Shown one piece after another: positions 21,469 to 53,078 of a stretch of 64,000 nucleotides of DNA. Source of the DNA: a virus; the IMG/VR virus record IMGVR_UViG_3300009502_000026, positions 30,091 through 94,090 of that record; one strand, given 5' to 3'. Each line of letters begins with the position of its first letter. Within the stretch, counting starts at the first letter, position 1. The notes under the pieces were generated by a model. It was not told where the DNA came from. It worked only from the letters and a program-made list of their open reading frames with translations, and searched no databases. Position numbers and translations under genes: made by a program.

Positions 21469-22812
21469 TCAGTCCACATTACCCCCGAAAGCTACCTCTT
21501 TGAGAACTCTTAGGGTTGCCAAAACATGCTTGCAAACCTTGTGATTCCCACCAGGGTCCCGAACAGAGGGGTCTGAAGCAGTCCCCCTGGGCTTCCCATA
21601 CAGGTAGCCACCCACCATTGCCCAATGTTCCGGTCCTTGGAACTGCCAGTAGTCACAGGAACAATCCACCTGTATGTGAAGCTTGCTAAGTGACTTGATG
21701 TTACCTTTTCTCAATGCACGAAGCCGAACTCTGTAGGGTTGACCCTTGCTTCCGGGTACTGCGAAATGCCAGATGCCGTTCTTGGCATCGAACCTCTTGA
21801 GCTTGGGTGTGATCCTTCGGGACTTCTCCACTACTTCTATGGGAAGGTCACTTTCAAGGTCTGCCATCTTAGCTGCAACCCTTGACCCAAACGAAGCCTC
21901 CAGGGCGGATTCCGTCAAGATAGACAACACCACCATAGCCTGATGGTCGGAAGCCTTCTTATTTTCGTAGTCAAAACCTTCCGGGATCACCTTTGCAGAC
22001 CCAGGAGCACCCCTAGTCTCCTCACCCCGATCCAAGGTATGCCCTGGCATCTTGGCATCATCTTCAGGGTAAGTGTAAGGCTCCCCATAGGTAGGGGTGG
22101 GAAGGTCTAGGGTATCCCCTGGACGGTCATCCTGGGGTTTCCTCAGAGGGGGGTCAGTTTCCCGGTAGAAGTCAGCTAGGACCCTGTGGACAGAGGCTTC
22201 ATGGGTCTCTCGCCACTCCTTGGCTCGATCCGCAGGGTTCCTCACACCACCCCCAGGAACCCGTTGGAACTTACCCTCAGTCTTCGGGTTTTTCCGGTCT
22301 TCTTGATCAACTGAATACCATTGTTCCCGGTTGATGAAGTCATACCGGACTTTATTTCGTTCTTTGATTTCAGACTTGTTCTTCTCGTAATAACGATGGG
22401 AGTAGAGCTTGGCTTTGTCTCCCTGTGCCTTCTGCTTGGGTATAGGGAATCGTTGCTGCTCTCCAGCTAAAGCTTCGGCTTCCACTCTCCGTGGAGTGAT
22501 GTTATTCTTGTAGGGGTGACCGTATTCCTCCCCAGGCTTACCTAAAGTCCTGATAGGTACCTTCTCCCCCTCACTGGGGTTGGAAGGTCCAGGACCATTG
22601 TAGTTAGCCTCTGGAAGTACGTTGTCTCTACCCTTACCATGTTCCTTCGGGAGGGGGAGTACATCCCTTTCCGCAGAGCCAGGGGTATAGGAATCGCCTG
22701 GAAGAGTACTCTTACCACCTTCTTCAATGCCTTTGTCACTCCTCTCATCTACATAGGTCTTTGTGGACCACTCATTCACGGGAGGACGGACGGCTGTTCT
22801 AGGTGTAGTCAC
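21469..22812 (-). CDS. virion-associated protein with C-terminal SWIM-like zinc motif
   Basis: 447 aa. The N-terminal ~270 residues are low complexity, rich in Pro, Glu, Lys and Asp, probably disordered. The C-terminal ~150 residues form a domain with CSCDYWQFQGPEHWAMVGGY followed ~35 residues later by HKVCKHVLATL. That is CxC...CxH, the SWIM zinc-finger signature. SWIM domains bind DNA or protein. The conserved WQFQGPEH/YGKPRGTAS block is one I recall from virion proteins of related large phages. DNA binding inside the head is an inference. Confidence 0.68.
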   Translation of the reverse strand: MTTPRTAVRPPVNEWSTKTYVDERSDKGIEEGGKSTLPGDSYTPGSAERDVLPLPKEHGKGRDNVLPEANYNGPGPSNPSEGEKVPIRTLGKPGEEYGHPYKNNITPRRVEAEALAGEQQRFPIPKQKAQGDKAKLYSHRYYEKNKSEIKERNKVRYDFINREQWYSVDQEDRKNPKTEGKFQRVPGGGVRNPADRAKEWRETHEASVHRVLADFYRETDPPLRKPQDDRPGDTLDLPTPTYGEPYTYPEDDAKMPGHTLDRGEETRGAPGSAKVIPEGFDYENKKASDHQAMVVLSILTESALEASFGSRVAAKMADLESDLPIEVVEKSRRITPKLKRFDAKNGIWHFAVPGSKGQPYRVRLRALRKGNIKSLSKLHIQVDCSCDYWQFQGPEHWAMVGGYLYGKPRGTASDPSVRDPGGNHKVCKHVLATLRVLKEVAFGGNVD

Positions 22813-22884: not shown

Positions 22885-23445
22885 ATGACCAACCTCCTGA
22901 ATGTCCTTGACCGAGATTTGGTGATCCTTCACAAGGGAGACACTATCCCTGTAAAGATCAGTGATGCCTTAGCTGCTTCCGGTTGGGCCGGTGGACAGTT
23001 CTGCCGTTGGATTGATGACGGTTCAGGAGACCTTACTGTAGCACTTGCTGATGGTAGGTACTGCGGATTCATGCCATTTGGTAGCAGCGAATCCGGGGAC
23101 CAGTACACCGCAATGACCAATCAGAACCCAACGTATAAGTACGTTGTGATGTTCTTTGGTGGCAACGTAGTCTACACCAAGACCTATGAGACTTACGGGT
23201 ACTTGGCCCGTCATGGTCTGGGCCCCCTTACACCCATTGTCTACATCCCAAACCAATCTCTCTACATTTCAGAGAATGGTAAAATCACAAATGAGGATGA
23301 GTCAGATTTTGCAATCTTCCCTCCCCACACCTTCCCAGATGGTTCACCAATTCTAGTTAGATTTGTATTCTTCGGTGTATGTGCAGTTCCCCCGCAAACA
23401 TCCACCAAGTTCTATCTGGCTACCCAGACCAACTTCGGGGTCTAG
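22885..23445 (+). CDS. plus-strand phage protein of unknown function
   Basis: 186 aa, isolated on the plus strand between two minus-strand operons, with its own sigma70-like promoter and GGGAG before the ATG. The sequence is beta-rich (GGQFCRWIDDGSGDLTVALA, RYCGFMPFGSSESGDQYTAM, FFGGNVVYTKTYETYGYLAR, SLYISENGKITNEDESDFAI), consistent with a small structural or coat-like protein. No membrane segment and no catalytic motif seen. It converges with 23442-24119 by a 4-base overlap. Separate promoter control suggests early or constitutive expression. Confidence 0.6.
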   Translation: MTNLLNVLDRDLVILHKGDTIPVKISDALAASGWAGGQFCRWIDDGSGDLTVALADGRYCGFMPFGSSESGDQYTAMTNQNPTYKYVVMFFGGNVVYTKTYETYGYLARHGLGPLTPIVYIPNQSLYISENGKITNEDESDFAIFPPHTFPDGSPILVRFVFFGVCAVPPQTSTKFYLATQTNFGV

Positions 23446-24119
23446 GGGTTCTTCGGAGTCTTAGCTGGGGGTTCAGCAATGAACCTATTGAGAAGCGATA
23501 GCTCCATGGCATGGGGTTGCTTCAGGATATCATCTACATCCGGGGGTGCCTTGCGTGCCTGAGCCCTTGCCTTAGCAACGGACACATCTGCATTGTCCAT
23601 CTCTTTGACAGCCTTCCCAGCTATGTCTGAAGTGTTGGACAAAGCCTTTGTCTTGGCTAATTCCTCGACTTCCCGCTTCTCAGGGTTGTCAAAGAACATA
23701 TTTTCAGCAGAAGGGGCACCGGAATTATCCGAGACCCCATGCTTTGCCATGTACTGACTGACAACTGACGTTGCAGAGGGCATCTTCCTTGAAGACCGGA
23801 AATGAGATCCTTGCACAGCATTATCCACTTTCTCACGGTCTGATATTGTCAAAAGGCCCTTCAAGAAATCCTGCCCCATGACTGCCAGAGCATAAGAAGT
23901 ACGATCCAAAGATCGTTCCAACTCTTCCAACTGCTTTGGAGTAGCCTCAAGGATATCCCCAGCAACCTGATAGAAATGGTCCTTGTGCTCGGACCTATCT
24001 ACCAAAGTCATAGCTCTATTCAGAAGATGACTGAGACGATGGGCTCTTACCCTGGCATCCGTGACACCTTCAGTCAGGATTGCCCAGGCAGCTTGACTAG
24101 ATGCAGTACGTTGGGTCAC
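23442..24119 (-). CDS. virion-type helical protein; RBS inside a hairpin
   Basis: The frame is open to a TTG at 24152, but GTG 24119 is the better start: it follows GGGAGATACCT and yields TQRTASSQAAWAILTEG, an N-terminus typical of relatives I recall in large phages. ~225 aa, mostly helical (ARVRAHRLSHLLNRAMTLVD, EELERSLDRTSYALAVMGQD). The C-terminal third is charged and probably disordered. Its ribosome site lies within the 8-bp stem at 24123-24143, so translation may be gated by RNA structure. Internal virion protein by family impression. Confidence 0.68.
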   Translation of the reverse strand: MTQRTASSQAAWAILTEGVTDARVRAHRLSHLLNRAMTLVDRSEHKDHFYQVAGDILEATPKQLEELERSLDRTSYALAVMGQDFLKGLLTISDREKVDNAVQGSHFRSSRKMPSATSVVSQYMAKHGVSDNSGAPSAENMFFDNPEKREVEELAKTKALSNTSDIAGKAVKEMDNADVSVAKARAQARKAPPDVDDILKQPHAMELSLLNRFIAEPPAKTPKNP

Positions 24120-24122
24120 AGG

Positions 24123-24143
24123 TATCTCCCTAACAGGGAGATA
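24123..24143 (-). promoter_or_regulatory. hairpin covering the ribosome site of 23442-24119
   Basis: The minus-strand RNA reads TATCTCCC-TGTTA-GGGAGATA: a perfect 8-bp stem with 5-nt loop. The 3-prime arm contains GGGAG, placed 6 nt before the GTG start, so closing the stem would hide the ribosome site. Confidence 0.65.
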
Positions 24144-24154
24144 GCATAGCAAGA

Positions 24155-25641: not shown

Positions 25642-27384
25642 CTAGACGTAGATACCAGTCAGATTCTCTGCCATGTTCTTACCCGAAAGGGTGATCTGGA
25701 GTCCTACCCCAGTCAGCTTGACCAGACCCTCACCTAGAAGCTTCACAATGATAGGGTTCTTGGGGTCATACTTCCCAAGCCCCTCACGTCCAAAAGCCTC
25801 TCCTCGGGAACCCGCCTTGTAGGACTTGATGATCTTCAGTGCCTTCTTCTCATCCTCCGAGAGCTCAACCTGTGTCTCAGACGGGAGAAGCTTCTGAAGG
25901 TTGTCAGGATTTACATAAACAGAGGCATAGGGTGTTCCCCCAATGAAACCCTTCACAACAGCACCATTCATCGGAATGGGGTAGTTCTTGTCATCCAAGT
26001 CTACCTGATTCTTGGGGTTGAACATGTTTGCCCCTCCCCAGGAACCCCATTCAAGCTTGTAGCGTCCCGTCCCTAGGTCAACTACAGCCGTGAAACCTCT
26101 ACGGCCCTCACCACCGGGATCTACTGGAGAGTAGGTATTTGAAGGGATCACTCTGATGTCCCTACGCCCGTAATCCACTTCTTTCAGAACATTCCTGATA
26201 CCTTGGGGCAAGTCCTTTGTCAACATGTACTGACCCGAAGCTTCCTTGATAAGAGGAAGAAGGTCCCCACGGAACTCAGGATGGGAGTGGGCGAGCTTGA
26301 TGATCTGGGACCGGAGGCTAGCTCTCTTCTGCCCCTGGAAAGGAACATCCATATCAGACATAGCAGCATTGTAAGCTCTCCATACCTGATACATCTTCCG
26401 CATGGGGAAACGGTACTGATCAGCTTCCTCATCGGTCTTGGCACTCATCTGCTTTTTGACAAGATCACTCTTAATATCATCAACAGCATGGAATTCCTTC
26501 TGAACCTTGTCCTTCTCCCCACTCTTCATCCTCTTCACAAGGTCTTTCTGAAGAGCTTTTACTGCCGGATGGCGATATGCCTTGTCCTTGTCCAAGTCTG
26601 CATCTGGCATCTTTTCCATAGCATCCTGAAGATGCTTGGGCATTGCCTTGACCTCTGGGGGAACCTTCAACCCAGGAGGGGCCTTTTGAGGATAGTAACC
26701 GTTCTTCCTCTCATTCTTGTAAGTATCAGACTTGTGGTGCTCATCGTGATTGAAAGCTACTGAATGATTTTCTGGCTTGGCCTTGGGATGAGCCTTGAGG
26801 TACTCATCCATAGCTTCCTGGGTCTTGAACTCCATAGCTGTCTTCAAGATAGGGAGAAGGTCTCCTCGGAACTCAGGGTGAGCATGGGCGAGCTTGATGA
26901 CCTTAGACCGGAGAGATTGTGTGTTCACGTCTGCATTCCTCTGCTTGAGAAGGTAGATGTTCGTCTCATGTGCATTGGCTAGTGCCATGATGAAGTCATC
27001 CAAACCGAGAGTCATCTCCCCAGAACCCTTGATGGCTTCATAGAGTTCCTTCAGAATCACCTGAAGTTTCTCTTCCAACATCAAGGCCCTGAAAGGGATG
27101 TCACCTGACTTCCCATAGTATTTCCTGAGTGCCCGCATTGTGAGGGCTTCAATCCCAAGGGGCTCCACGGCTCCTGGACCAAAGTATGAGACGATCTTCT
27201 CAGCTAGACCATCAACCTCATCTGACACACTCACATAGAGACGGTTGAAAAGATCATGGTCAGAGTAAGAGATAGCCCCATTGGTCTGCCAATGTGAGGT
27301 CCAGTGGGACCAATGCAAAGCCTTCAGAAAGGCTAGGGCCTGTACCAGGAGACTCTTGGTGCTGTCGGAGGAAGGGGTTCCCAT
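25642..27384 (-). CDS. polyprotein: Dps-like domain + two internal targeting modules + conserved C-terminal domain
   Basis: 580 aa. Residues ~10-150 are a Dps/ferritin-like four-helix domain: His31, His43, Asp58 and Glu62 have exactly the spacing of the Dps ferroxidase ligands (12, 15 and 4 residues apart, as in E. coli His51, His63, Asp78, Glu82), in HWTSHWQTNG, SDHDLF and SDEVDGLAEKI. Residues 158-183 (SLRSKVIKLAHAHPEF, then RGDLLPILKTA) and 357-382 (SLRSQIIKLAHSHPEF, then RGDLLPLIKEA) are copies of the targeting module, each starting a new segment. Residues ~390-580 hold a domain with DLGTGRYKLEWGSWGGANMF. The layout suggests three virion proteins made as one chain and cut at the modules. 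Confidence 0.8.
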   Translation of the reverse strand: MGTPSSDSTKSLLVQALAFLKALHWSHWTSHWQTNGAISYSDHDLFNRLYVSVSDEVDGLAEKIVSYFGPGAVEPLGIEALTMRALRKYYGKSGDIPFRALMLEEKLQVILKELYEAIKGSGEMTLGLDDFIMALANAHETNIYLLKQRNADVNTQSLRSKVIKLAHAHPEFRGDLLPILKTAMEFKTQEAMDEYLKAHPKAKPENHSVAFNHDEHHKSDTYKNERKNGYYPQKAPPGLKVPPEVKAMPKHLQDAMEKMPDADLDKDKAYRHPAVKALQKDLVKRMKSGEKDKVQKEFHAVDDIKSDLVKKQMSAKTDEEADQYRFPMRKMYQVWRAYNAAMSDMDVPFQGQKRASLRSQIIKLAHSHPEFRGDLLPLIKEASGQYMLTKDLPQGIRNVLKEVDYGRRDIRVIPSNTYSPVDPGGEGRRGFTAVVDLGTGRYKLEWGSWGGANMFNPKNQVDLDDKNYPIPMNGAVVKGFIGGTPYASVYVNPDNLQKLLPSETQVELSEDEKKALKIIKSYKAGSRGEAFGREGLGKYDPKNPIIVKLLGEGLVKLTGVGLQITLSGKNMAENLTGIYV

Positions 27385-27417: not shown

Positions 27418-29592
27418 CTAACTGTCAGCACTTATGCTTAGAGCCAACCTTCGGAGGAGAGAAGCTAGGATATGCTTCTCATTCAATCTGGCAAAGAGAC
27501 GGTCCATGATCGGCATGATTTTCTCTTCGAAGGTCTTCTCCTCAATGTACATATCATTATCGTAGGTCATCCAGTTCAACCATGGATTGCTGATCCCAGA
27601 CTTGCAGAGGCGATGGTAAACATACTGTTCACAGACCCGTGCCCATACCTCAACGGAAGAAAAGGCATAGCTCAACTTCCGACTATCCCCACCATTCATC
27701 TTGGTGTAGTACTTATCCGCTGCCTCCACTAGCACTGGAGAAAGTTCTGTCTTGTACTTTGCTTCTGTAACAGTTTTGTAGTAGTATGGATGATCTTTGG
27801 GAAGATCATACATGCTCTGTCCTGTAAGTTCCTTGATGGCACCTTCCAGAGAGAAATCGTAAACCCCTGGAACCCTATTCTTCCATCGGGTGTAGTCTGG
27901 GGTAACCAGAATAGTTTCTATCAGTTCAGGTATCTCAGGGAAATTGCCTGCTATACGGCCAAAATAGGCATTGGGGGTTTTGAACCATGTTGCAGCATAG
28001 TCCAGGGTCACTCCAGTCCTACCAAAGATATTCCCGTCTGGGGATCTCCTAGCTTCCTCGGGGTTATCCTGAAGGTTTATCCGGTAGGCTAGAAGCTCAT
28101 CCAAGTAGTGACTGAGTTCATGTGCCAGGACACCCTCATAGTCCTCCCCAAATGTCACCCTTGGTTGCCATACGTTTCGATCCTCCCAAGCAAAGTAGCT
28201 AGCCTTTGCCATGAAACCACTAGATCCCCCGAACCTGAAAGCTAGACCCTTCTTGTGCTTACCGCAGAAACCCTTCCCAAACACCCTCTCCAGGTCTGAG
28301 ATAGCTCTGGACACCCTGCCAAGGGTCTCTCTTTTCGATTCTTCAGTGTAGCTCCCCAGGAACTCCACATCACCTGTGTCATGTGTAGTCTGGAATTCCT
28401 CTACAGACATTGGCTTCCAAGTCAGAGGTTCCAAAGGGATACCATCTCTGATAGCCTTGTTCTTCCCCAACTCATCCATGGACTCCTTGATGTTGTCAAG
28501 GAAATACCCGTTAGGGAGAATCTTCCTGTCTACAGCTTCCTGGATGACCCTCTGGAACGAGGGGAGAGTTTTCACCTGATTGAGAACCGTGAGTACCTTC
28601 CGCTGCTCACGAGGGATGTTCTTCTTGCCCTCACTGACCATCTTGACATAGTACTTCCGTAGATTGCTGAGTACAAAGTCAGTGGGACCGTCAACTTCCA
28701 CCTTGGCTTCTCTCTTCAGGATATCCTCAATAGGTTCCTGTACCTGTCCACCCTTGATGATATTGACATGAACTCCAGCCCTACGTTGGGCCTTCAGGAG
28801 TATAGCTTGTGACTTCAGCCAGTAGTCACGCTTTTGCTCCAAAGGGATTGTATCATCGTTTGCAGCATCCTTCCAAGCCTTGTCACTACGGATAACCTCA
28901 CCACGAATCTCGGTTTTCTCCTCTTCGGGCATATCAAACCATGCCCCAGGATTCTCTTCCTCATGGGGGGTGAGTCCCAGACTCCTACCATCCCCTTTAC
29001 CGAGAAGGATTATCTTGCGGAGAAGTACCTTGACCCCCGTAGGGACTGCCTCCAGCCGAAGAACACTCTTGAAGAAACCAGGGTAGTCAATGTCATACTG
29101 AAGGCTTGGGTCACGCTCCTCATCATTGATGTCCATGCTGATTGCTTGTCGAACCACACGGAGCACCAATGGAGATACTTCTTGCCAATGCAATCCTCGG
29201 AGCCCCCGAAGGATCTTGGTTACATAGACAAGTGCCTGACGGTCCTGAGTAGGTAGGAGCTTGGCTACCCCACGTAGGGGAGTAGCAATGATCTTGACCC
29301 CTGGACCGTACTCCCCAGCTTCACATTCATCTGCGAACTGAAGGCAAGCTACAACGAATTCCTTGTGGAAGAATCTCCGAACGGAAAGAAACTTCCGAAC
29401 TTCACCCTCAGTGTAGAACGGGTTATTCAGGATGGCAGACTGAGCAATCTGGAGTGCAATACCTGCCGTGACTACTTCCAAGGCAGGAGTAGGCTGCTCT
29501 TTCTCAGTAGATGCAAGCACAGGTAGAAGATGCACCCGTAGAGATGGGGTTTGCTGGGCAAGATGGATGAGACTTGACCGGAGGTTCATCAT
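27418..29592 (-). CDS. targeting-module protein with C-terminal HExxH metallopeptidase-like (LPD1-type) domain
   Basis: 724 aa. The N-terminus has the module (NLRSSLIHLAQQTPSLRVHL, then LPVLAS). Residues ~30-440 are helical with no recognised fold. The C-terminal ~280 residues contain AHELSHYLDELLAY (His491, Glu492, His495) followed by YFAW/FGRTGVTLDYA-type segments and SSVEVWARVCEQYVYH. That combination is the pattern of the large polyvalent protein-associated zincin-like domain. Such domains occur in phage and conjugative-element proteins delivered with DNA. I infer an injected protease or zinc-binding structural domain. Confidence 0.78.
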   Translation of the reverse strand: MMNLRSSLIHLAQQTPSLRVHLLPVLASTEKEQPTPALEVVTAGIALQIAQSAILNNPFYTEGEVRKFLSVRRFFHKEFVVACLQFADECEAGEYGPGVKIIATPLRGVAKLLPTQDRQALVYVTKILRGLRGLHWQEVSPLVLRVVRQAISMDINDEERDPSLQYDIDYPGFFKSVLRLEAVPTGVKVLLRKIILLGKGDGRSLGLTPHEEENPGAWFDMPEEEKTEIRGEVIRSDKAWKDAANDDTIPLEQKRDYWLKSQAILLKAQRRAGVHVNIIKGGQVQEPIEDILKREAKVEVDGPTDFVLSNLRKYYVKMVSEGKKNIPREQRKVLTVLNQVKTLPSFQRVIQEAVDRKILPNGYFLDNIKESMDELGKNKAIRDGIPLEPLTWKPMSVEEFQTTHDTGDVEFLGSYTEESKRETLGRVSRAISDLERVFGKGFCGKHKKGLAFRFGGSSGFMAKASYFAWEDRNVWQPRVTFGEDYEGVLAHELSHYLDELLAYRINLQDNPEEARRSPDGNIFGRTGVTLDYAATWFKTPNAYFGRIAGNFPEIPELIETILVTPDYTRWKNRVPGVYDFSLEGAIKELTGQSMYDLPKDHPYYYKTVTEAKYKTELSPVLVEAADKYYTKMNGGDSRKLSYAFSSVEVWARVCEQYVYHRLCKSGISNPWLNWMTYDNDMYIEEKTFEEKIMPIMDRLFARLNEKHILASLLRRLALSISADS

Positions 29593-33856: not shown

Positions 33857-34735
33857 TCAGCGGGTTACCGTGAGCCTTACGAGGCCCCTGGGGTTGTACG
33901 CCCCAATACCCAAATTCTCAAACACCGAGAAGCCGATGGTGCGTGCCTTGGGGTCGTCTGCGGAGAGGACCGTGAGCTCAGTGCGGACGGGAATCCGGCC
34001 GAACATCTCGGGTTCGCAGCAAACGTAGATCGTTCCAACCGGAACGAGCCTGGAAGTGATGATCTGGGCTCCCCAGAGAGTGGCCTGGAGGCCAGTCTTC
34101 AGGAGAGTTGCCTGACTCTCGATATCCAGGATGTCACGGCCGAACTTCCTCACGTCGGCGTAATCCCTTGCGTTCATGTAAACACGGGCAACCCGGAGGT
34201 CGTGCCGCTCGATGAGTGCAAAGGCATCAGCCAGAACCGCACCATTGACCGGAGCGATGACCGGCACGTCAGGGTTCGTCCCACCGGGGAGGGAATCGAA
34301 GCCGTTGACTGCGATGGCATCGAGAACTGCGAAGACTCTCTCGTCTTCCGCAGCCTGGATCTGGGCACGGGCAAGATCCTGAGCCCGCTCGATCAGGTCA
34401 AAGCGACGTTCTTTGATCTGGGTGAGAGGAATCTCAGGGTTCGAAGCGACTTCGAACAACGGAAAGATCACCCTACGGGGCTTGGTGATTGCGAGGATGT
34501 TCTCCCCTTCTTCACCTACCACGTATGCGGTCACATCCGGGTCCTTGTCGTAGATCGGGAGCGCACCATCAGGAAGCTGCTCAACCAAGAAGGTCTTGCG
34601 GCCGACTGCGGTGTAGTCACGACGAGTACGAAGGGGCTGGGTCATGGAAGCAGCAAGCTTCGCACGGCCAGTTGCCGTCTTCAGGTACTCAGAGATGATC
34701 TGCTGCTTGACAGCGTTGCTTACGGGGGTAGTCAT
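33857..34735 (-). CDS. major capsid protein (HK97 fold)
   Basis: 292 aa. The pattern ITKPRRVIFPLFEVASNPEI followed by LIERAQDLARAQIQAAEDERVF (here split in text: LIERAQDLARAQIQ, AAEDERVF) is the E-loop/spine-helix region typical of large-phage capsid proteins, and RVYMNARDYADVRKFGRDIL, LWGAQIITSRLVPVGTIYVC and VFENLGIGAYNPRGLVRLTV are the P- and A-domain strands. Third positions are C/G-rich compared with neighbours, in line with very high expression. It follows protease, scaffold and 34759-35472 in the classic assembly order. The first ~30 residues (KTATGRAKLAASM) may be removed during maturation. Confidence 0.88.
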   Translation of the reverse strand: MTTPVSNAVKQQIISEYLKTATGRAKLAASMTQPLRTRRDYTAVGRKTFLVEQLPDGALPIYDKDPDVTAYVVGEEGENILAITKPRRVIFPLFEVASNPEIPLTQIKERRFDLIERAQDLARAQIQAAEDERVFAVLDAIAVNGFDSLPGGTNPDVPVIAPVNGAVLADAFALIERHDLRVARVYMNARDYADVRKFGRDILDIESQATLLKTGLQATLWGAQIITSRLVPVGTIYVCCEPEMFGRIPVRTELTVLSADDPKARTIGFSVFENLGIGAYNPRGLVRLTVTR

Positions 34736-37108: not shown

Positions 37109-39868
37109 CTAAGATGTCGATTTCTCTCTCAGTGCCAAGAGTTTCGCCATCCTAACCAGAACTGTTGCCTCTTGGGTTGTGGGCTCTCGGCCCATCGTGA
37201 ACTCACAAGCCTGGAGGAAAGTAGTCAGGGACCGGAACCCGGTAGGAGACCCTACCATCCCTGCCACCTTGTACAGGTCACTAGCGATCTTGATACCCTG
37301 CGAATTGTTCAGGGCTTCTAGCTTGAAGATGAAGTCATTGTCAGAGCTTGCAGTTCTAACAAGTTTCTGAACCGTAGCCTTGTATTGGGCTACCTTGGGG
37401 GTACTTCCAGTGATCAGAGTTGCTTGGGGAACCAACTTAGGAGTATGCCCCACTACCTTCACACTAGCCTGACTCACCAAGGTATCGTTGGGGGCATCAG
37501 AAGAAGGAGCCGCAGGGTTAGTATTCCCATAGGGGGCAGACCCCCCATTCATGGCATCCTGGACTCTCTTCTTGACCCTATCCAGCATCTTCCCGTAAAG
37601 CTCATCTTCCATGTCCTTCAGAGGATCAGGCTTGGCTTCAGGGGCAGGTTCCGTAGCAGGAGCATCAACTCCCTCATCCTCAAACTCCTGTGCTACACAG
37701 GAGCTTGCTGCCTTAGCTAGACCCTCTGGGAGATTAGAGAAGTCATTCTTGGGCAAGGTCTTCGGGATACTGAACATTTTCTTCCCACTAGGAGAGAAAG
37801 CTGAATCCCCTACCACCTTGACAGGACCACGAGCTACGGCACCTGTAAAGGCTGGGATCTTCACCCAAGATCCTTCCACAAAGACCACACCCCCTGTTGC
37901 ATCCTCTGTCTCATGTCCACAGAGTTCCGCAATCTGATGCCTCTGCCCCATCTCATCAAAGAATATATTGCCCTTCAGGTGACGGATGCAGTTACAGAAC
38001 TCCGTCTCATCTGAAGCCCAATTCCCACACTTTGTACATGTCGTACTCTGTGTAGTGCAACCCATAGATAGGGAATCAAGAGCACCGGATTCAATGTCCT
38101 GGATGAGTTGAACATGCTTACGGTCATTAGCTACCAGGATGTCCACGTACACAGAGGGGCCAATGTCCCTGGCTACAGCATCAATGATCCGACCCTTGGA
38201 GAGCTCCTCAATCTGAACGTGCTCCACGAAACTGTGAGCACCGATCAAAGTAGGGTAGGACTTCAGGAGTACCGGACGAGACCACGCATCAGAGTTATGA
38301 ACAGCGATCCCCCCTGCGATATAGGAATTGTCCTCTTCTACCTCAAGGTTATGGACCTTGCCCTGGTACTCCACAACCTCTACAGATTCTACGATCTGGA
38401 GGCAGTAGCCATTCAAGAACCGGAGATCAGGTACCTTCTGGACCTCACCATGGGATTCCAGAAATGCAGCATAGGCACCCTCATATTTGGTACCTTCCAG
38501 TAGATCATTCAGATAACCAGCCCCGCAGGATAGAGTCCACCCCTGGGTCTCTTTGGTGGGGTCTGAAACCACAATCGGTTTACCGTCCACTACCAATCGT
38601 TTACGGCCCTCCAGGACAGCAAAGGTCCACTGGGGGGCCACCCCCAACCTATGGAGGATCAAACGTACTTGGTTGATCAGGGATACACTTGCGGAACTAC
38701 CCGTCAAGCGGGCATCCCCAATCTTGGAAGTAAAAAAACTCCCATCCCCCTCAAACCACCCCTTGACTACCTCTTCCTGTACCTGATGTGAGGCACGGAG
38801 GAGATCCTCATGCAAACTCTTGGTCTTTGACCCATCGCCCAACACCCAACGAGAGAAGAACTCCACCAGGGGCCTATTGGTCTTGGTCGTGACCACAATC
38901 CCCTTATCAGTCTGATGATACCTGATAGTGCTGTCTGCCCCAAACTCTGACTTGAGGAGAGAACATACAGTTTTCGCTAATGTATTCTCCTCACTCAGGT
39001 TGAAGGCAAAGCACACCCCTACCCTCTCATTGTCCTTACGGGAGTCCAGTTCATAGTAGCCTTCCGCAAGAAAGAGCCCGAGAAGCCTAGCTTGGCCCGG
39101 TGTCAACCCCACAGAGACATCCCCATCCAGGATGGGTGTGGCTACAAAATCCCAATGATCCCTCACCTGACCAACAGGTACGAATTCTCCCCTCTTCTCA
39201 GTCAGAAGATCACGTTTAGGGATTCGCTTGCTGTAATAGCAAGCCCCACTACAGTAGAATCTGTCCAGAAGGTGGGAAATACACTTGCTGGCATGGTGGA
39301 TATTGGACCCGCACTGAATACAGGCTTCCTGGGGGCGGAACACGAAGAATGGGTGTTCCCGGGTTACATATAGTCTCTCGTTACACCCACGGTACTTCAA
39401 CCCCAGAAGTGCCCCATCAACCTGATGGCTATAGGTCTGGAGAACTTTACGTGCCCTTCCTGTATGAGTCAGAACCTCATCCCCCACCTGTACCTGCTCA
39501 ATGGGCTTAACCGTCCCATCTGACATTGTAATGGATGTGCCAGGAATGAAGCAGTTATTGTTGATCCATTTTTCGCAGTCAGCTTTGACCCGGAAGTCAG
39601 CATACTTCCGGTTGATCTTCTGACCATCAAACTGAATCATGCCCAGCTTGGTACCGGGAGTAGCAACCGTATCTACCGAAGCTACCAGAGTTGCGTGAGT
39701 GAGAAGGTACTTGGAAGGGTCAAATGACTCCCCAAGAATATCAGAAGCTTGCTTCACCAAGTCCCTGTCCAACCGGGTAGACCCGGATGCTACACGGACA
39801 TCATCCCATACTCCATCCCGGAGCTTGGGAACGGTGACCAGAGCTCTTGCAGTTCTTAGGAAGGCCAT
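37109..39868 (-). CDS. prohead maturation protease, interrupted by an intein
   Basis: 919 aa, of which residues 106-525 are an intein. The 499-residue host protein shows a prohead protease core: GAHSFVEHVQIEELSKGRII (His550 is the probable catalytic His), DILVANDRKHVQLIQ and ESGALDSLSMGC (Ser601 the probable nucleophile), a pattern like T4 gp21-type proteases. It is followed by a zinc-ribbon segment (CTKCGNWASD, FCNCIRHLKG). The C-terminal third is charged, with a helical end (ALNNSQGIKIASDLYKVAG). It cleaves scaffold and head proteins during maturation. GGGGTAAGTCC precedes the ATG. Confidence 0.85.
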   Translation of the reverse strand: MAFLRTARALVTVPKLRDGVWDDVRVASGSTRLDRDLVKQASDILGESFDPSKYLLTHATLVASVDTVATPGTKLGMIQFDGQKINRKYADFRVKADCEKWINNNCFIPGTSITMSDGTVKPIEQVQVGDEVLTHTGRARKVLQTYSHQVDGALLGLKYRGCNERLYVTREHPFFVFRPQEACIQCGSNIHHASKCISHLLDRFYCSGACYYSKRIPKRDLLTEKRGEFVPVGQVRDHWDFVATPILDGDVSVGLTPGQARLLGLFLAEGYYELDSRKDNERVGVCFAFNLSEENTLAKTVCSLLKSEFGADSTIRYHQTDKGIVVTTKTNRPLVEFFSRWVLGDGSKTKSLHEDLLRASHQVQEEVVKGWFEGDGSFFTSKIGDARLTGSSASVSLINQVRLILHRLGVAPQWTFAVLEGRKRLVVDGKPIVVSDPTKETQGWTLSCGAGYLNDLLEGTKYEGAYAAFLESHGEVQKVPDLRFLNGYCLQIVESVEVVEYQGKVHNLEVEEDNSYIAGGIAVHNSDAWSRPVLLKSYPTLIGAHSFVEHVQIEELSKGRIIDAVARDIGPSVYVDILVANDRKHVQLIQDIESGALDSLSMGCTTQSTTCTKCGNWASDETEFCNCIRHLKGNIFFDEMGQRHQIAELCGHETEDATGGVVFVEGSWVKIPAFTGAVARGPVKVVGDSAFSPSGKKMFSIPKTLPKNDFSNLPEGLAKAASSCVAQEFEDEGVDAPATEPAPEAKPDPLKDMEDELYGKMLDRVKKRVQDAMNGGSAPYGNTNPAAPSSDAPNDTLVSQASVKVVGHTPKLVPQATLITGSTPKVAQYKATVQKLVRTASSDNDFIFKLEALNNSQGIKIASDLYKVAGMVGSPTGFRSLTTFLQACEFTMGREPTTQEATVLVRMAKLLALREKSTS
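38294..39553 (-). mobile_element. intein with LAGLIDADG endonuclease (protease gene)
   Basis: 420 residues, from Cys (after WINNN) to Asn (VHN before SDAW). Block A is CFIPGTSITMSDGTVKPIEQ; the end is GKVHNLEVEEDNSYIAGGIA followed by VHN. LLGLFLAEGYY and VVKGWFEGDGSF are the two LAGLIDADG-type motifs, both with the catalytic acid (Glu, Asp), so the endonuclease looks intact. It is inserted upstream of the catalytic core. Confidence 0.9.
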
Positions 39869-46155: not shown

Positions 46156-49100
46156 CTACCCGAATCTTCCACCACCCTCATCAGGCTTCTTGTACTTGAG
46201 CTTCAAGTACTCAGCGATCCTCTCCACTACATCAGAATTCTCGGCAAGGTTCCTACCGGCTTCAGTGTAGATACCCCGGAGAACTTCATTGAACGTGGAG
46301 TCATTCAGGGTAAACACATCCCGCATGAGCTTCTCGTTCGTAGCCGTGGGGTCAATGTTCAGGAGTTCCAGGATGATATCAATATCCAGAGAACCCTTCT
46401 GATAGAGGTTGAACAAAGCATCGAAGGTATCAGCATTGTCCCGAAGGGCAAGACGGGTGAAGGTAAGGGTTGGGACAACCACTTCTTCATTCCCATCCTC
46501 ATCGAGCTCAATGAACCCCATGCGCTTACACATGGGAGCCAGCATGTTCTGTTCAACCATCTCCTGGAGGATTTCCCGCAGAAGCATGAACCGGGTGTTG
46601 ATAACCTCCAGATTGATCCTGTCACCGGAGTAGCTGGACTCCCCAGACAAGAGAGATTCAGTGACCCCCAGACCGGCATACAACTGCCTATCTGTCTGGT
46701 CATACTCAGTCGAGAGTTCCAGGAGACGCTGACTAGACCCCATCTCCTCCCAATTGACCTGGAAGTTGGTGATGATGGAGTAGTCCGGGTCCATCAGGGC
46801 CATATCCACCTGATCCCGGAGGTTCTCTACATCTGCCACATCCATATCTTCGGCATAGACCAGCCGAATAGGAGTCATGTGGCGAGAAGCAATCTGTGTC
46901 TGGGACTGACGGAGCTTATCCCGATAGACCAGGGTACGAATGCAGTTATGGACTACGATCCCACCGGCTACTAGAGTCTCATCATCCTCTACATCAAAGG
47001 AATAGACCGGACCCTGATAGTGGAACCGTTCCACTTTATCAAGGGTATGTGTTGTCCAACGGTCATCCTTCTTGAAGTACCCAAGTCTGATCTTCTCTTT
47101 GTAGCCCTGAAGGTAGGGCTTCGTGGCACTTGACCACACAGAGAAACTAGACATCCGGGCCATTGTAATAGGTGAATGAGTACGGAGCACATAAGTAGTG
47201 AAAGCCCCGTAGGAATAGGTCTTGTCCCTAACACGGGATACCCTAGGGTGTGCTTTGGGGAACTTTGCACGCCCCCCTATAGGCTTCCCCCCCACTACCT
47301 TCTTCACCTTACGGGAACTCTTACGGCTCTTCCACCGATCTACCGAAAGGTTCAGTCTCTTACACACCAGATACAACTGCGAAGTCAAAATTGCATCATG
47401 GAGATGAAGCTCCATAAGCTTCTTCCCAATGGTTTCTACCCTACCGCTACTGTCAAGAATACCCCCCAAAAGTGCCAGAAGGTACTTCTCTCGGACCCCA
47501 AACATCCAGTCAGGAAGTATCTTGGACTTACCATACTGGAAGTGTTCGTGAATCCAACGAGCCAGTAGGGCATCCGGCAACTTGAGAGTAGTGTGTGCCC
47601 CAGAGTCTTCAATCTCTATGGACTCTTCCCCAAAGACATTCTGGAGAGCTTCCTTGAGCTTGAGGACACAATGGGAGTGCTTCTTGTCTATCCACCACTC
47701 AGTTACATACTGGGCTGGTGAAGAATAGGTGGGGAGTTTCACCTTCCCCTTAGCTACCCATGCACCCAGGATGTAGCAGAGGTCTTCGGTCATCTTGAAG
47801 GAGACAGTATGAGGGGCAACTGCATGTCCCCAGGCAAAGGCACCAGGAGCCGGTAGGAACTCAGGATAGGCAAGGCCCCCTGGGGAAGCCCTGCACATCG
47901 AGTTCTCCCAATGGTCTGCTAGATCGAACCGGAGGGGCACCTTACGGTCATGTGTACGGATATGACTCTCCCGTACCTTGTCCCCAGCCTTGATGTCCCC
48001 AGCCAGGACTTCTTCTTCCTGACCCTCTGCGTTGATCCTTATGATCTTGTGATCTTTGGTGAAGCAGATAGGGTCACGGAGAGAGATAGAATGGATTGTG
48101 ATACCCACAACCTCTTCATCTACATTCCGAGTGCCCTTAGAAGCTTTACGAAAGCGACCTTTCCCTGTCAGGAGAAGATCAGTGTTCACATCCACTTGCT
48201 CAACCGGGATATTGACAACCAAACCCTGCCGATTGACCGTGATAGGTGTTCCAGGAAGAATACAGCGTTCCAGGACCGAATGGCCCCTGGGCTCATACTG
48301 TGACTTCTTCCTTGCCATGTAAAACACAAAACTCCCGGATTCGGGGTCTGTGTTCAGAGGAATGTTTTCCCCTTTCCGAATGGAATCCACAACCATTGAG
48401 GGCATGGAATCCACGATCCGTTGGGCCTGGGGGTCTCCAGCTTCGGCCTTGTGGATGATGTCTTTGGTCTTGCTATCAGGAACCAGTTCAATGAGTTTCT
48501 GGTCAGTGAAAGGATAGCTCTCCATGTGAATCTGTTCCGGGGGCAACACCCGAATTGCAGACCAACCATGGTAGTTTCTCTTCAACCACTTGACCGCACG
48601 CTCATTGGCATCCTGTCGATCTTGCCACTCTTCCGCAACACTTCCGTCTTCCTGAAGTACCCTGAATATCTCCTGAGTGATATCCTGGGGCATGTCTTCA
48701 GAAGCATCCTCACAGAAGATGAATACCTCACCCAACAGGTTGTAGTCATGGACGATTTCGATGAGACGATGAAGAAGTCCAATCTTCTTCGCCCACTTTG
48801 CACAAAAATTCAAGGATCTTTGTGCAATGTCACGATTCTTAGCCTTGGGCATACCAAGGCGAACCTTAGACAGAGGAAGTTCTGTCTGTAGGTCCAGAGC
48901 TTGGCCTACGAACGGATCAGCCCCGTAGAAGAACCGGAAATAGTTCCTCTTTTCATCGAGGGACTGAGGGAGTTCCAGGAAGTCTGTGGAGAGCTCAGGG
49001 CTGTAGAAATTGCCCCCAGAACCCTGGACAGAACCACTCACTGAAGGATAAGCCACCTTGGATCGAAGAAACCCTGTGGCAATCTTCGGGGGCTTCCCTA

Positions 49101-49176
49101 CCTTCACACCCTTCCGGGGAGGTACTTTCCCAACAGTTACCGCTTCAGTCTTATCAGTCTTATCAGCCATAGTCAC
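46156..49176 (-). CDS. portal protein, interrupted by an intein
   Basis: 1006 aa, of which residues 305-744 are an intein. The host protein (566 aa) has portal landmarks: YFRFFYGADPFVGQALDLQT near residue 85, LIEIVHDYNLLGEVFIFCED near 140-156, GWSAIRVLPPEQIHMESYPF near 205, and after the intein IRTLVYRDKLRQSQTQIASR, TNFQVNWEEMG, QLYAGLGVTESLLSGESSYS and INTRFMLLREILQEMVEQNM. The portal forms the ring through which DNA enters and leaves. KIATGFLRSKVAYPS near residue 35 is a basic N-terminus of the RVAS/KIAT type. Upstream of the protease and downstream of TerL, as expected. Confidence 0.88.
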   Translation of the reverse strand: MTMADKTDKTEAVTVGKVPPRKGVKVGKPPKIATGFLRSKVAYPSVSGSVQGSGGNFYSPELSTDFLELPQSLDEKRNYFRFFYGADPFVGQALDLQTELPLSKVRLGMPKAKNRDIAQRSLNFCAKWAKKIGLLHRLIEIVHDYNLLGEVFIFCEDASEDMPQDITQEIFRVLQEDGSVAEEWQDRQDANERAVKWLKRNYHGWSAIRVLPPEQIHMESYPFTDQKLIELVPDSKTKDIIHKAEAGDPQAQRIVDSMPSMVVDSIRKGENIPLNTDPESGSFVFYMARKKSQYEPRGHSVLERCILPGTPITVNRQGLVVNIPVEQVDVNTDLLLTGKGRFRKASKGTRNVDEEVVGITIHSISLRDPICFTKDHKIIRINAEGQEEEVLAGDIKAGDKVRESHIRTHDRKVPLRFDLADHWENSMCRASPGGLAYPEFLPAPGAFAWGHAVAPHTVSFKMTEDLCYILGAWVAKGKVKLPTYSSPAQYVTEWWIDKKHSHCVLKLKEALQNVFGEESIEIEDSGAHTTLKLPDALLARWIHEHFQYGKSKILPDWMFGVREKYLLALLGGILDSSGRVETIGKKLMELHLHDAILTSQLYLVCKRLNLSVDRWKSRKSSRKVKKVVGGKPIGGRAKFPKAHPRVSRVRDKTYSYGAFTTYVLRTHSPITMARMSSFSVWSSATKPYLQGYKEKIRLGYFKKDDRWTTHTLDKVERFHYQGPVYSFDVEDDETLVAGGIVVHNCIRTLVYRDKLRQSQTQIASRHMTPIRLVYAEDMDVADVENLRDQVDMALMDPDYSIITNFQVNWEEMGSSQRLLELSTEYDQTDRQLYAGLGVTESLLSGESSYSGDRINLEVINTRFMLLREILQEMVEQNMLAPMCKRMGFIELDEDGNEEVVVPTLTFTRLALRDNADTFDALFNLYQKGSLDIDIILELLNIDPTATNEKLMRDVFTLNDSTFNEVLRGIYTEAGRNLAENSDVVERIAEYLKLKYKKPDEGGGRFG
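46945..48264 (-). mobile_element. intein with degenerate LAGLIDADG motifs (portal gene)
   Basis: 440 residues, from Cys305 (after VLER) to Asn744 (VVHN before CIRTL). Block A is CILPGTPITVNRQGLVVNIP; the end is VYSFDVEDDETLVAGGIVVH followed by N. The endonuclease motifs read LGAWVAKGK and LLGGILDSSG: the catalytic acids are replaced (Lys, Ser), so homing activity is probably lost while splicing residues remain. Confidence 0.9.
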
Positions 49177-49527: not shown

Positions 49528-49788
49528 TTACCACCGTAGAGATGGGGTCAGATGTCCATATTTGATGGCAATAGTAATGATCTTCTTGAGAAGAAGGATG
49601 TCCTCAATAGAACCTTCAAAGACCCCTTCCCACGATCCCCCAGCCTTGACAAAGACCCGTGATACCTTGTCATACTCAGTAGGAATATGAACCACCTTGT
49701 TTGGATGGACAGATTCAAGGATCTTACGGATGATCCTATGATCAGACCTGACAGGACTGGTGGGAGTGAGGCTTGCTGTGCGATTCAT
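49528..49788 (-). CDS. small unknown protein overlapping TerL stop
   Basis: 86 aa. TSPVRSDHRIIRKILESVHP begins the sequence, and the C-terminal part SIEDILLLKKIITIAIKYGH is helical. Its start overlaps the TerL stop by 4 bases (ATGA-type coupling). Small genes here often encode head-completion or terminase partners. No fold recognised. Confidence 0.58.
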   Translation of the reverse strand: MNRTASLTPTSPVRSDHRIIRKILESVHPNKVVHIPTEYDKVSRVFVKAGGSWEGVFEGSIEDILLLKKIITIAIKYGHLTPSLRW

Positions 49789-52700
49789 CTTCCACGCTTC
49801 CTACCTGCCAAGCCACCCGTACCCCCCATTCCAGACCAGCCACTCCTACCACTAGGGACACCCATTGCAGGAAGTCCACGGGGAGCCATTCGAGACTCAT
49901 GGCTCCCACTAGCAAGAATTCGTTTCCGAGCCTTCATTGCACCAGAGGGGGTACGGGGCACCTGACCATTGTCCATGAACCGAGAGGTTCCTCCTGCATG
50001 TGTGATATAGGATGGTTTTCCAAGTACGTTGGATGCAGCCCACACCATTCTAATCAGAGCATCAGAACGGTCATCATGCTTCCCCTCCATATTGGGGGCT
50101 TCCACCGTAACTACATACTTACTATGATACTCTGCCTGAAGCTCCATGAGTTCCACAATGTAATCACAATGGTTGGCACCATCAGGAATCGGAAAATCAT
50201 ACATGACCAGCTTATGGTCATACATCATGTCCTTGAAGTTCTGGAACATCTGGGACGTGAGTATCTTTGTCATCTGTGTAGCCTTCATCTGCCGAAGGCC
50301 ACGCTTGGCAAGTGCCTGTTCCAGGGGGATACCTGCCCACTGGTCAAAGATACCTTCATGGATCAGGAACTTCTTGGACAGTTCTGCAATCCAGTCAGCT
50401 ACAGCATCGAAGTCCAGCCGCTCGACGTTGATGTACTTACCTTCTCCAGCCTTGATCTGGTCTACAAGATCGACTATGATCTTTCTCTCAGCGAGGTCAA
50501 TGTGTCCAAGTGCAATTGCCGTCGCATCACCCGACAGACCCAAGTCCAATCCAAGGAAGTAGGATTGCCTGGGAACCCCGTAATACTTCGGGCGAGCCCC
50601 AGGGTCCACGCAATCCATCAGGTCCTTGTCACGCTCAATCCAACCACGGGTCCTGTCAGTGAACTCCCCCCCGTACTCAGTGAAGAACACTGAAGGGTCT
50701 TTCAGGTAGTGCTTTTCAAACTCCTCGGCAGGAATCGTAGGATTGACTTCCCAAGTTGGTGCCTGGATGCACACCATGTTCTTGGAAGCCTTGCCACCCT
50801 TCATCCCAATCTGAAATAGCTTGTAGAAAAGACCTTGCTTTCCTAGGGGAGATGAAATCGAGATGATCCGGCCCTCTACTGGACCAATAGGAACTCTCTT
50901 GTCACTAGCCTTCTTGGGAGAGAAAGCTGAAGTAGACGGGGTAACCGCATTGTAAACGGACTCTGCGGAAGACTGCCCTTTGTCTGTGAAGTGGGCAATC
51001 TCGTCCAGAATCACGACTAGGTTACCGGCACCACGAAGACCCTTGGCTACACAGGATCGGAAGGTGACCTTAACCGAGGCCCTTGCATTAGGATTCTCAA
51101 TATACCTACCGTACTTTTCAATGTCCTTGGGTGTCTGGAAACGAGCATAGGACATGGTATTGTTGGCTGTATAAGGTACGAAGAACTCACACCCCCTGAA
51201 ATGCCCTGAAGTTTCCTGATAGAGAAGTCCTGCCTGATCCTTGTCCGTAGCAACCGAGATGATCTGGATAGGGTTGCTGGAAGGTAGCCCGTAGTATTGA
51301 TGTGGGTCACTCTTCAGGATCAACTTGTAAGTCTCATAAGCTGCGATAATGGCACCTATGGCCGTATTGTGGTTGGTCATCCCCCCAGCTACAAAACTCT
51401 CCCCTTCTGGGACGGTCAGATCATATACCCTAGCCTCACCTGAATTTACGGTTTCTACGGGATCGTAGAAATAGTTGGCCGTCTGAAGTACCTCAAAATG
51501 ACGTATCACATCTGGGTCTGCCCCTAAACTCTGAGCCATTGCCAGTGTGGGGCCAAGCCTGGGGTATGTCATGGACTCCTTGGAACTCGGTTTGATGGTG
51601 TTCCCCAAAGCCGTCCGCAACAAACTACGATGCCAACCTGGACGTTTCCCATGCCCCCCACGGTTACAGGTCACAGATTGAAGTAGGGCATCACACCAGG
51701 ATCGTTGATGGGGAATGTTTTCAGCATCCGATCCTTCTTTGGAAGTCCTAGCCAAAGATGCCAACACTGGGTCATTTTTCTTGGACGACCTAAATCCAAT
51801 CTCGTCCATGAACTTCTGACGGGAGGCCGTACCTCTCACGTACACGTTGTAGTAGAATCGCTTGTACTTCTTATTCCACTTTGCCCGTCGAGTACTCACA
51901 ACCCCGAAGTTCAGGAGAAGTATTTGAACTTCCCGTGCAAGTTGCTCCGATGCCGAAGAGAACGATACAGCCAACCCCCCCTTCTCTGAGCAACCATCAG
52001 TCTCAAACAATCCCTGTAGGAACCTCTGCACAACAATCTTAGGGGACCTCATGATGGTCCACGGGACGTGCTTGGTATTCCTTGTAATATCCCATGCGAA
52101 CCCCAGCTTGTGTAGAAACTTCCTCACATGAGTGCTGAAGAAGTCAATGGAGCCAGTGTTGTTGGTCCGCTTGTCCATACGGACGTTGAAAGATCCGAAT
52201 AGACTGGTGTACAGCGCCTTCAGTTCCTCCCAGGTCTCTGGATGCTCTACAGTCACAGACACCGCATTGTGCTTCGTCCATGAACCACCCCCGACCAAGT
52301 ACCCCAGGAAAAGTCCCCATTCTTCAGTAAGCTCAGTTGGGAGAGTCACCCTGGGGTCTTCACATCCAGTATGGAGGGACTCCAACGGTACCCTCTGAAC
52401 AGGCCAAAGGTCAGATGTGCGATGAATAGCGATCTGGTCACCAAGATGGATATGGTCCAGGTATCTCCATTGGATGGTGCCACCTTCGGACATCACCCTA
52501 ACTCGGTGACCAGCGGTACCCTCAAGTTCATACCCACTACGGGTCACAAACTTGATTGTAGGTTTCACCCCTCCATTGTAGAAGAATGCAGAATCAGACC
52601 TGACACCATTCTCCTGGACCACACCAATTTCCAAAGGCTGGTACTCAGGACCCTTGGAATCTCCGAGGTCCTGAATGGGGATTATGCCCTGGTTGGTAAG

Positions 52701-53078
52701 AACCAGGGTATCCCCAACCACACATTTCCCAGAACGTCTCCCGATGGACAGGACGATCTCCCTACGTTCTACTCCAGGGATGACCTCCCGGATATTGCTC
52801 CTACCCTCCCGGTAGAGCATCTCCAGGTATTCAACCTCAGTATACTCAGTGAACTTTTCCCATCTCCAATCGTGGACAGTGAACCGATTGGCTGGGTCAT
52901 TATCAAGCTCAATCCCATAATGGGCTTTGAGGATGATCTTCTGTACTGGAAACAGCTTTAGGTTCAGCCCCCAGTCAGACTCAGTGAACTCAATGATGTT
53001 TGCTACTTGAGAAGTACTTTTCGTAATGTTTGCTGCGGCCCTAGCAGAGCCCAATGCAATCTCACCTAGATTACCCAT
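49785..53078 (-). CDS. terL: terminase large subunit, interrupted by an intein in the Walker A motif
   Basis: 1097 aa, of which residues 119-571 are an intein; spliced length 644. The ATPase P-loop SIGRRSGK is cut exactly after Lys118 and resumes at Thr (TAIGAIIAAYETYKL), so GRRSGKT is rebuilt only by splicing. Walker B is NLVVILDEIAHF. The RNase H-like nuclease is YFLGLDLGLSGDATAIALGH (first Asp) with a C-terminal HDDRSDALIRM acid. It packages DNA into proheads and cuts it. The C-terminal tail is Gly/Arg/Met-rich. It is the strongest phage hallmark here. Confidence 0.9.
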   Translation of the reverse strand: MGNLGEIALGSARAAANITKSTSQVANIIEFTESDWGLNLKLFPVQKIILKAHYGIELDNDPANRFTVHDWRWEKFTEYTEVEYLEMLYREGRSNIREVIPGVERREIVLSIGRRSGKCVVGDTLVLTNQGIIPIQDLGDSKGPEYQPLEIGVVQENGVRSDSAFFYNGGVKPTIKFVTRSGYELEGTAGHRVRVMSEGGTIQWRYLDHIHLGDQIAIHRTSDLWPVQRVPLESLHTGCEDPRVTLPTELTEEWGLFLGYLVGGGSWTKHNAVSVTVEHPETWEELKALYTSLFGSFNVRMDKRTNNTGSIDFFSTHVRKFLHKLGFAWDITRNTKHVPWTIMRSPKIVVQRFLQGLFETDGCSEKGGLAVSFSSASEQLAREVQILLLNFGVVSTRRAKWNKKYKRFYYNVYVRGTASRQKFMDEIGFRSSKKNDPVLASLARTSKEGSDAENIPHQRSWCDALLQSVTCNRGGHGKRPGWHRSLLRTALGNTIKPSSKESMTYPRLGPTLAMAQSLGADPDVIRHFEVLQTANYFYDPVETVNSGEARVYDLTVPEGESFVAGGMTNHNTAIGAIIAAYETYKLILKSDPHQYYGLPSSNPIQIISVATDKDQAGLLYQETSGHFRGCEFFVPYTANNTMSYARFQTPKDIEKYGRYIENPNARASVKVTFRSCVAKGLRGAGNLVVILDEIAHFTDKGQSSAESVYNAVTPSTSAFSPKKASDKRVPIGPVEGRIISISSPLGKQGLFYKLFQIGMKGGKASKNMVCIQAPTWEVNPTIPAEEFEKHYLKDPSVFFTEYGGEFTDRTRGWIERDKDLMDCVDPGARPKYYGVPRQSYFLGLDLGLSGDATAIALGHIDLAERKIIVDLVDQIKAGEGKYINVERLDFDAVADWIAELSKKFLIHEGIFDQWAGIPLEQALAKRGLRQMKATQMTKILTSQMFQNFKDMMYDHKLVMYDFPIPDGANHCDYIVELMELQAEYHSKYVVTVEAPNMEGKHDDRSDALIRMVWAASNVLGKPSYITHAGGTSRFMDNGQVPRTPSGAMKARKRILASGSHESRMAPRGLPAMGVPSGRSGWSGMGGTGGLAGRKRGR
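51366..52724 (-). mobile_element. intein with LAGLIDADG endonuclease (TerL gene)
   Basis: 453 residues, Cys119 (GRRSGK before it) to Asn571 (TNHN before TAIGA). Block A is CVVGDTLVLTNQGIIPIQDL; block B includes ELEGTAGHRVRVMSE; the end is YDLTVPEGESFVAGGMTNHN. Endonuclease motifs are LFLGYLVGGGSW (acid replaced by Gly) and RFLQGLFETDGCS (Asp kept): half decayed. Confidence 0.92.

Follow-up and report, generated by a model that had tools for sequence, protein, structure and literature searches.

A tagged Dps-type miniferritin beside the head genes of an uncultured phage suggests an iron-storage protein packed with the viral genome

A single gene in a 64,000-nucleotide stretch of an uncultured virus (IMG/VR record IMGVR_UViG_3300009502_000026, positions 30,091 to 94,090; this whole stretch is referred to as the window) encodes a Dps-type miniferritin domain that is followed by two further units, each attached via a copy of a short tag. 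This arrangement suggests packaging of a miniature iron-storage protein together with the viral genome. The window region 25642-27384 is one long open reading frame of 580 residues on the minus strand (27384 to 25642), with a Shine-Dalgarno-like AGGTGG immediately 5' of its ATG, and the plus strand contains many stops over the same region. A preliminary description of this DNA had delimited the reading frame correctly, and its coding strand is now fixed as the minus strand. The gene is organized as follows.

25642..27384, minus strand: 580-residue open reading frame composed of Dps domain, tag, middle unit, tag and C-terminal unit
26917..27384, minus strand: Dps/miniferritin domain, residues 1-156, with the ligands H31, H43, D58 and E62 (AF2, Foldseek, conservation)
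26836..26916, minus strand: first LR-tag, residues 157-183, SLRSKVIKLAHAHPEFRGDLLPILKTA (tag HMM 5.5e-15)
26320..26835, minus strand: middle unit, residues 184-355, mildly basic
26239..26319, minus strand: second LR-tag, residues 356-382, SLRSQIIKLAHSHPEFRGDLLPLIKEA (tag HMM 2.7e-15)
25645..26238, minus strand: C-terminal unit, residues 383-580, with homology to a 485-kb-phage gene that stands alone and has an N-terminal tag

That residues 1-156 form a Dps-type domain can be regarded as practically certain. The AF2 model of these residues (pLDDT 92.9, pTM 0.88) places helices at 5-33, 39-68, 96-121 and 126-155 and a short BC helix at 75-90, which is the Dps layout A, B, BC, C, D, and it combines the four-helix bundle and the short BC-connection helix of the Dps family with the absence of a fifth C-terminal helix. 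In a Foldseek comparison with the PDB, the best 50 matches listed were all Dps, with a TM of about 0.8 to Dps structures, and VIA-align scored Dps at a Z of about 18, with other folds of the ferritin superfamily not far below. At the sequence level, a phmmer search of the PDB with the single sequence found Bacillus brevis Dps (0.002), and its PHROG match was phrog_3636, a 'DNA binding protein' (1e-6). A profile built from 55 domains matched Dps chains in the PDB from 6e-10 (5i4j), and among the matches listed every natural-protein name was Dps or miniferritin, the rest being engineered Dps scaffolds. These results bear out the Dps-like ferroxidase-type domain that had been proposed initially, with structure prediction against Dps as a suggested test.

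The residues H31, H43, D58 and E62, which the preliminary description had named at exactly these positions, are spaced by 12, 15 and 4 residues, and this is the spacing of the Dps ferroxidase ligands. All four are kept in 56 of 56 viral homologues (75 IMG/VR loci from an alignment search, minus identical domains), and 50 of these also have the exact 12/15/4 spacing, with domains that are mostly 29-53% identical to the one in the window. The patterns used for collecting them contained H31 and D129/D130 and not H43, D58 or E62, so that the conservation of the latter three is unbiased. By chance, H-x11-H-x14-D-x3-E is expected about 0.003 times per 580 residues, as estimated from shuffles of the protein and from unrelated reading frames of related phages; at about three in 1000 proteins of this length, the ligand pattern alone is suggestive, and the identification as Dps is firm because fold and homology agree.

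Two other kinds of metal site were considered and dropped. For an intra-subunit diiron site as in ferritin or bacterioferritin, a glutamate on helix A, ExxH on helix B, a glutamate on helix C and ExxE or ExxH on helix D were sought, but helix A has no conserved glutamate, and V65 and I143 stand three positions after E62 and E140. An extra intra-subunit site around the invariant E104, D129/D130, H139 and E140 yielded no conserved ligand set, and the invariance of D129/D130 is not independent, as these residues were part of the search pattern.

In the collections searched, this Dps family was restricted to viruses, where it forms 47 clusters at 90% domain identity on contigs of up to 619 kb. A single record among 50,697 of the phage collection has it (the 485-kb uncultured phage), and the genome collection gave two matches among 84,980 genomes, both on Dps-terminase contigs binned in MAGs. 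A cellular origin was rejected, as both matches are viral contigs with the Dps gene adjoining the terminase gene. The domain occurs alone (about 150 residues) or at either end of proteins of up to 1038 residues. In L053 it is fused to an InPase polyvalent domain (PF18823, 1.5e-40), and PHROG labels this same domain 'DarB-like antirestriction'. The Dps protein of L017 runs into a tail rich in His, Asp, Glu and Cys (6391-6600, plus strand; HHEHHHCDCPCGDHDHHHEHGHHHDHGHEDD) that possibly binds metal.

At least a dozen fusions carry in their N-terminal partner a protamine-like 60-residue stretch with a net charge of +21 to +33, the Dps itself being acidic. A stretch of this kind, with a net charge of +23 to +33, precedes the Dps in L012, L019, L021, L023, L026, L035, L036, L043 and L065, which are possibly DNA-condensing phage proteins. 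Unlike these many relatives with extremely basic stretches, the window member has an acidic Dps domain (net -5) with a short N-terminus that contains one lysine and lacks a Lys-rich tail, and the linker behind it is mildly basic, with +8 over 200 residues. DNA binding by the window domain, as it was initially proposed, therefore does not find support.

We lean towards the reading that this miniferritin is a head-directed and probably cleaved cargo, which is made as part of a three-unit precursor, consumes iron and spares the genome in the head. The 580-residue product would be a head-cargo precursor, with a Dps-type miniferritin subunit as unit 1, which has a predicted complete inter-subunit ferroxidase site, and with units 2 and 3 attached via tags that elsewhere start other proteins of the genome. 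The LR-tag would dock the precursor on the prohead core, as T4 capsid-targeting sequences do, and the head maturation protease of the phage would then cut at or near the K-x-A of each tag, which would free the units inside the head. There the Dps units could assemble between the packaged DNA, by analogy as dodecamers, and would bind Fe(II) and consume H2O2 or O2, so that the genome would escape Fenton damage within the virion, after ejection, or both. We favor this cargo reading because the Dps fold and the four invariant ligands come together with a location in the head block, the tag and the boundary tests described below, and also because the phage encodes its own head maturation protease, a relative fuses an InPase, and the capsid-targeting sequences of T4 are a precedent (PMC5694885). 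The synteny, the fusions and the tags thus support a virion cargo made as a polyprotein indirectly. Counting against it are relatives with an untagged Dps far from the capsid genes, the acidic domain, the presence of a T4-type glutamate in only about a third of the tags, and the fact that most tagged proteins besides Dps have no known domain. The steps that we consider weakest are the packaging, the cleavage, as the site lacks the T4-type consensus, and the contact with DNA, as the window member has no basic stretch.

The terminase, portal, head maturation protease and capsid genes of the window all lie upstream of the Dps gene, and its surroundings comprise the following genes.

21469..22812, minus strand: downstream gene, with an N-terminal part that resembles the basic Dps partner in L012, L050 and L052 (profile 1.1e-7)
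23442..24152, minus strand: downstream gene, with relatives fused to Dps in L009, L031, L060, L064 and L082 (best 1.8e-19)
27418..29592, minus strand: gene directly upstream, 724 residues, with an N-terminal LR-tag and a HELSH metallopeptidase-like motif
33857..34735, minus strand: major head protein (phrog_2522, 1.7e-48)
37109..39868, minus strand: head maturation protease, interrupted by an intein (phrog_18299, 1.2e-7; Hint, LAGLIDADG and intein models)
46156..49176, minus strand: portal, probably intein-containing (phrog_16240, 1.9e-29; PF14890, 8e-5)
49785..53078, minus strand: terminase large subunit, 1097 residues (phrog_17415, 6.9e-24)

As the two downstream genes, 1.5-6 kb away, have Dps-fused relatives, the Dps is tied to a cargo-like gene group. 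The 724-residue upstream gene additionally gave a weak LPD1 match under the cut-off. The terminase gene also appears interrupted, and inteins would then sit in several packaging genes of one phage. Between portal and protease lies a 1345-residue reading frame with a type IB topoisomerase core (41146-45183, minus strand; PF01028, 3.5e-28), which is unusual inside a packaging block. Closer to the Dps gene, a 262-residue reading frame (29614-30402, minus strand) has collagen repeats and a C-terminal match, just below the Pfam cut-off, to the ribosomal protein L7/L12 C-terminal domain, and two abutting genes (31442-31903 and 31904-32284, minus strand) encode a small LR-tagged protein and then a zincin-like metallopeptidase with HEFGH and a weak ATLF-family match.

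Among the relatives, a homologue of TerL, portal or MHP is found within 6 kb of the Dps in 18 of 46 clusters. On contigs above 100 kb this holds for 11 of 24, whereas 3.8 would be expected given the length of each contig and a target taken to span 31 kb. The corresponding P of 4e-4 treats the clusters as independent, an optimistic assumption, since the lineages have synteny in common. The order w53870 - Dps - w53081 - TerL - portal is conserved in about a dozen loci. For 20 records, protein queries were used in place of a Pfam terminase search, which was insensitive. Most of the major head proteins share 84-94% identity with that of the window, which indicates a coherent clade; in the records G001-G033 (contigs of 81-485 kb) with head proteins in this range, other proteins go down to about 45-60% identity.

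As alternative to the cargo reading, the Dps could be a non-virion protein, encoded by an auxiliary gene that acts in infection and protects the host cell or the replicating phage DNA from oxidative stress. Such an intracellular role has been published for Gratiaviridae and Lactobacillus plantarum phages, and in the 485-kb phage and several other relatives the Dps gene is indeed free, untagged and roughly 70-80 kb away from the capsid genes. However, the position in the packaging and head block is conserved across many lineages, and Dps proteins are fused to virion- or polyvalent-type partners and have tags and a boundary motif in common, so that we consider a purely intracellular role rather unlikely, although it deserves serious attention. 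In the 485-kb phage, a GroEL-like chaperonin reading frame was recognised by eye some 0.8 kb away from the free Dps gene (L010, 5151-6698, plus strand).

The LR-tag is a 27-residue element with the consensus TLRSKLIRLAHxxPELRPxLLPLLKxA, and the 94-kb record has 15 copies of it, two of them in the 580-residue protein, whose tags are common to about ten other viral proteins. It was found in 12 of the 21 Dps-bearing records tested, with 1-15 copies each, and within the phage collection in the 485-kb record only. Most of the 96 non-redundant copies are N-terminal (74; 19 are internal and three C-terminal), and the sequences behind them are unrelated, with a mean column identity of 5% in an alignment of 83. 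The LR-tag thus resembles the T4 capsid-targeting sequence in being a short, mostly N-terminal sequence that is common to unrelated proteins of one phage. The tagged proteins besides Dps are mostly without known domains, with RelA/SpoT, WGR and a sub-threshold LPD1 as singletons. The middle unit of the window protein opens with an EAxDxYLKxHPKA element, and two other genes of the record have this element behind their N-terminal tag. The two 'targeting modules' of the preliminary description are therefore real as copies of a portable tag (157-183 and 356-382), and capsid targeting is a function that we infer for them.

The tag might also mediate docking at a different place or to a different partner, such as a phage compartment or a scaffold, with the 580-residue protein staying uncut. 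This possibility concerns the tag only, and it is compatible with a non-virion role or with a structural use of the Dps. It would agree with the scatter of LR-tagged genes over the genomes, beyond the head block, with the three C-terminal copies and with the K-x-A end, which is no known protease consensus. We nevertheless find it doubtful, since the tag is mostly N-terminal and short and is followed by unrelated cargo, like the T4 sequence, since the same genome encodes a head maturation protease, and since L142, a homologue of the C-terminal unit, starts with a different short stretch ending in IIKEA. The glutamate of a T4-type (L/I)xE site is present in 30 of 90 tags, about a third, and the K-x-A end is more general, so that the protease specificity, if any, would differ from that of T4. 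Homologues of the C-terminal unit in L142 (2977-3651) and L147 (2944-3624) start with other short, helical-looking stretches that end in IIKEA or ILKEI, and these may be different tags on the same cargo in other phage groups.

The ends of the tags and the junctions behind Dps have a common boundary. KTA or KEA stands at the end of 47 of 88 LR-tags, against about 0.9 expected, and KTA occurs within 45 residues after the Dps in seven of 14 junctions, some of them related, against 0.27 expected. Together with its tag, the C-terminal unit of the window matches the start of the 485-kb-phage gene L132 (56% identity, 1e-62), where the tag is the N-terminus. The extensions after Dps in L034 and L015 correspond to the segments behind the N-terminal tags of the genes L105 (1.6e-49) and L107 (7e-36); in both, the LR-tag is missing, the Dps stands in its place, and AKTA or SRTA is found at the junction. 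In three close relatives, one Dps (87-94% identical) is followed by three different arrangements, two of which match units found elsewhere after an N-terminal tag. These are interchangeable units, and from their sequences we infer modules that share one type of boundary, for which a protease site would be the simplest explanation. The MHP N-terminus was rejected as a second K-x-A site, as it reads KTA in the window and KTP in several relatives. The C-terminal unit has 20 homologous loci, and most of its other homologues are free proteins without LR-tag; its AF2 model (pLDDT 81.5) gave no confident match in a fold comparison with the PDB, and a winged-helix-like end is a local hint only.

As three close relatives carry a near-identical Dps with different units behind it, the Dps could, besides being cargo, itself be a packaging carrier that is exchangeable with the LR-tag, and that by binding DNA or the core would bring fused proteins into the head, where they would be cleaved at KTA; we think that this is improbable. 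Less probable still is a reuse of the Dps fold for oligomerisation or as a structural core in the head, with the iron chemistry irrelevant, which would suit the many unrelated fusion partners and the swapping of the cargo behind one Dps among three close relatives, but a purely structural role would not require ligands that are invariant in all 56 homologues despite their divergence.

Compared with the Dps miniferritins of Listeria innocua (1qgh/2bjy), E. coli (1dps) and cyanobacteria (5hjf, 2c41), the window domain has the same four-helix bundle with a short BC helix and the same H-x11-H-x14-D-x3-E site; the exchanges in the Listeria mutant entry 2bjy, H31G-H43G, have the residue numbers of the window ligands. 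It differs in lying within a longer tagged polypeptide and in belonging to a virus-restricted subfamily, and the viral domain is 14-21% identical to solved Dps in structural alignments, net negative and without the Lys-rich N-terminal tail.

The initial statement that no well-described case exists has to be narrowed. Phage-encoded Dps of Lactobacillus phages and Gratiaviridae have been discussed as intracellular oxidative-stress enzymes (PMC6669764, PMC8008677), with the gene near replication and repair genes in L. plantarum phages, whereas the window Dps, of the same fold, is a tagged fusion located within or next to the head block. The closest viral folds are BFVD proteins of uncultured Caudovirales (A0A6J5RS28, A0A6J5LAB8, A0A6J7WPK9 and others; TM up to 0.89, 30% identity), some of them long, with 333-763 residues, and some named 'Prohead protease', a name that, like 'ParB/Sulfiredoxin', is an automatic annotation; the literature searched held no description of them and no shared tag system. 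Phage Dps as intracellular antioxidant and Dps-fold phage proteins with automatic annotations are thus known already, and a Dps as tagged head cargo is not described in the literature searched, which included no virion-proteome paper with Dps or ferritin and jumbo-phage overviews that mention neither.

If packaged, it would be a ferritin-fold, iron-detoxifying protein within a tailed-phage head, by which large virions would protect their genome from oxidative damage or deliver an antioxidant to the host alongside the DNA. The clade-wide LR-tag would in addition be a handle to predict which proteins a group of large uncultured phages carries inside the head or injects. Phage polyvalent proteins (Iyer et al. 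2017), which are multidomain mosaics near late genes with InPase and metallopeptidase themes, and in whose description ferritin and Dps are absent from the text, share the context near virion genes; the InPase-Dps fusion is found in L053 only, and the LPD1 match of the neighboring gene is below the cut-off. The internal proteins of T4 have a short N-terminal capsid-targeting sequence that is common to unrelated head proteins and is removed by the prohead protease (PMC5694885). Compared with these and with the inner-body and ejection proteins of phiKZ and SPN3US, the LR-tag has a different sequence, is about 27 residues long and also occurs internally and C-terminally, and its cleavage would be the counterpart of the T4 processing.
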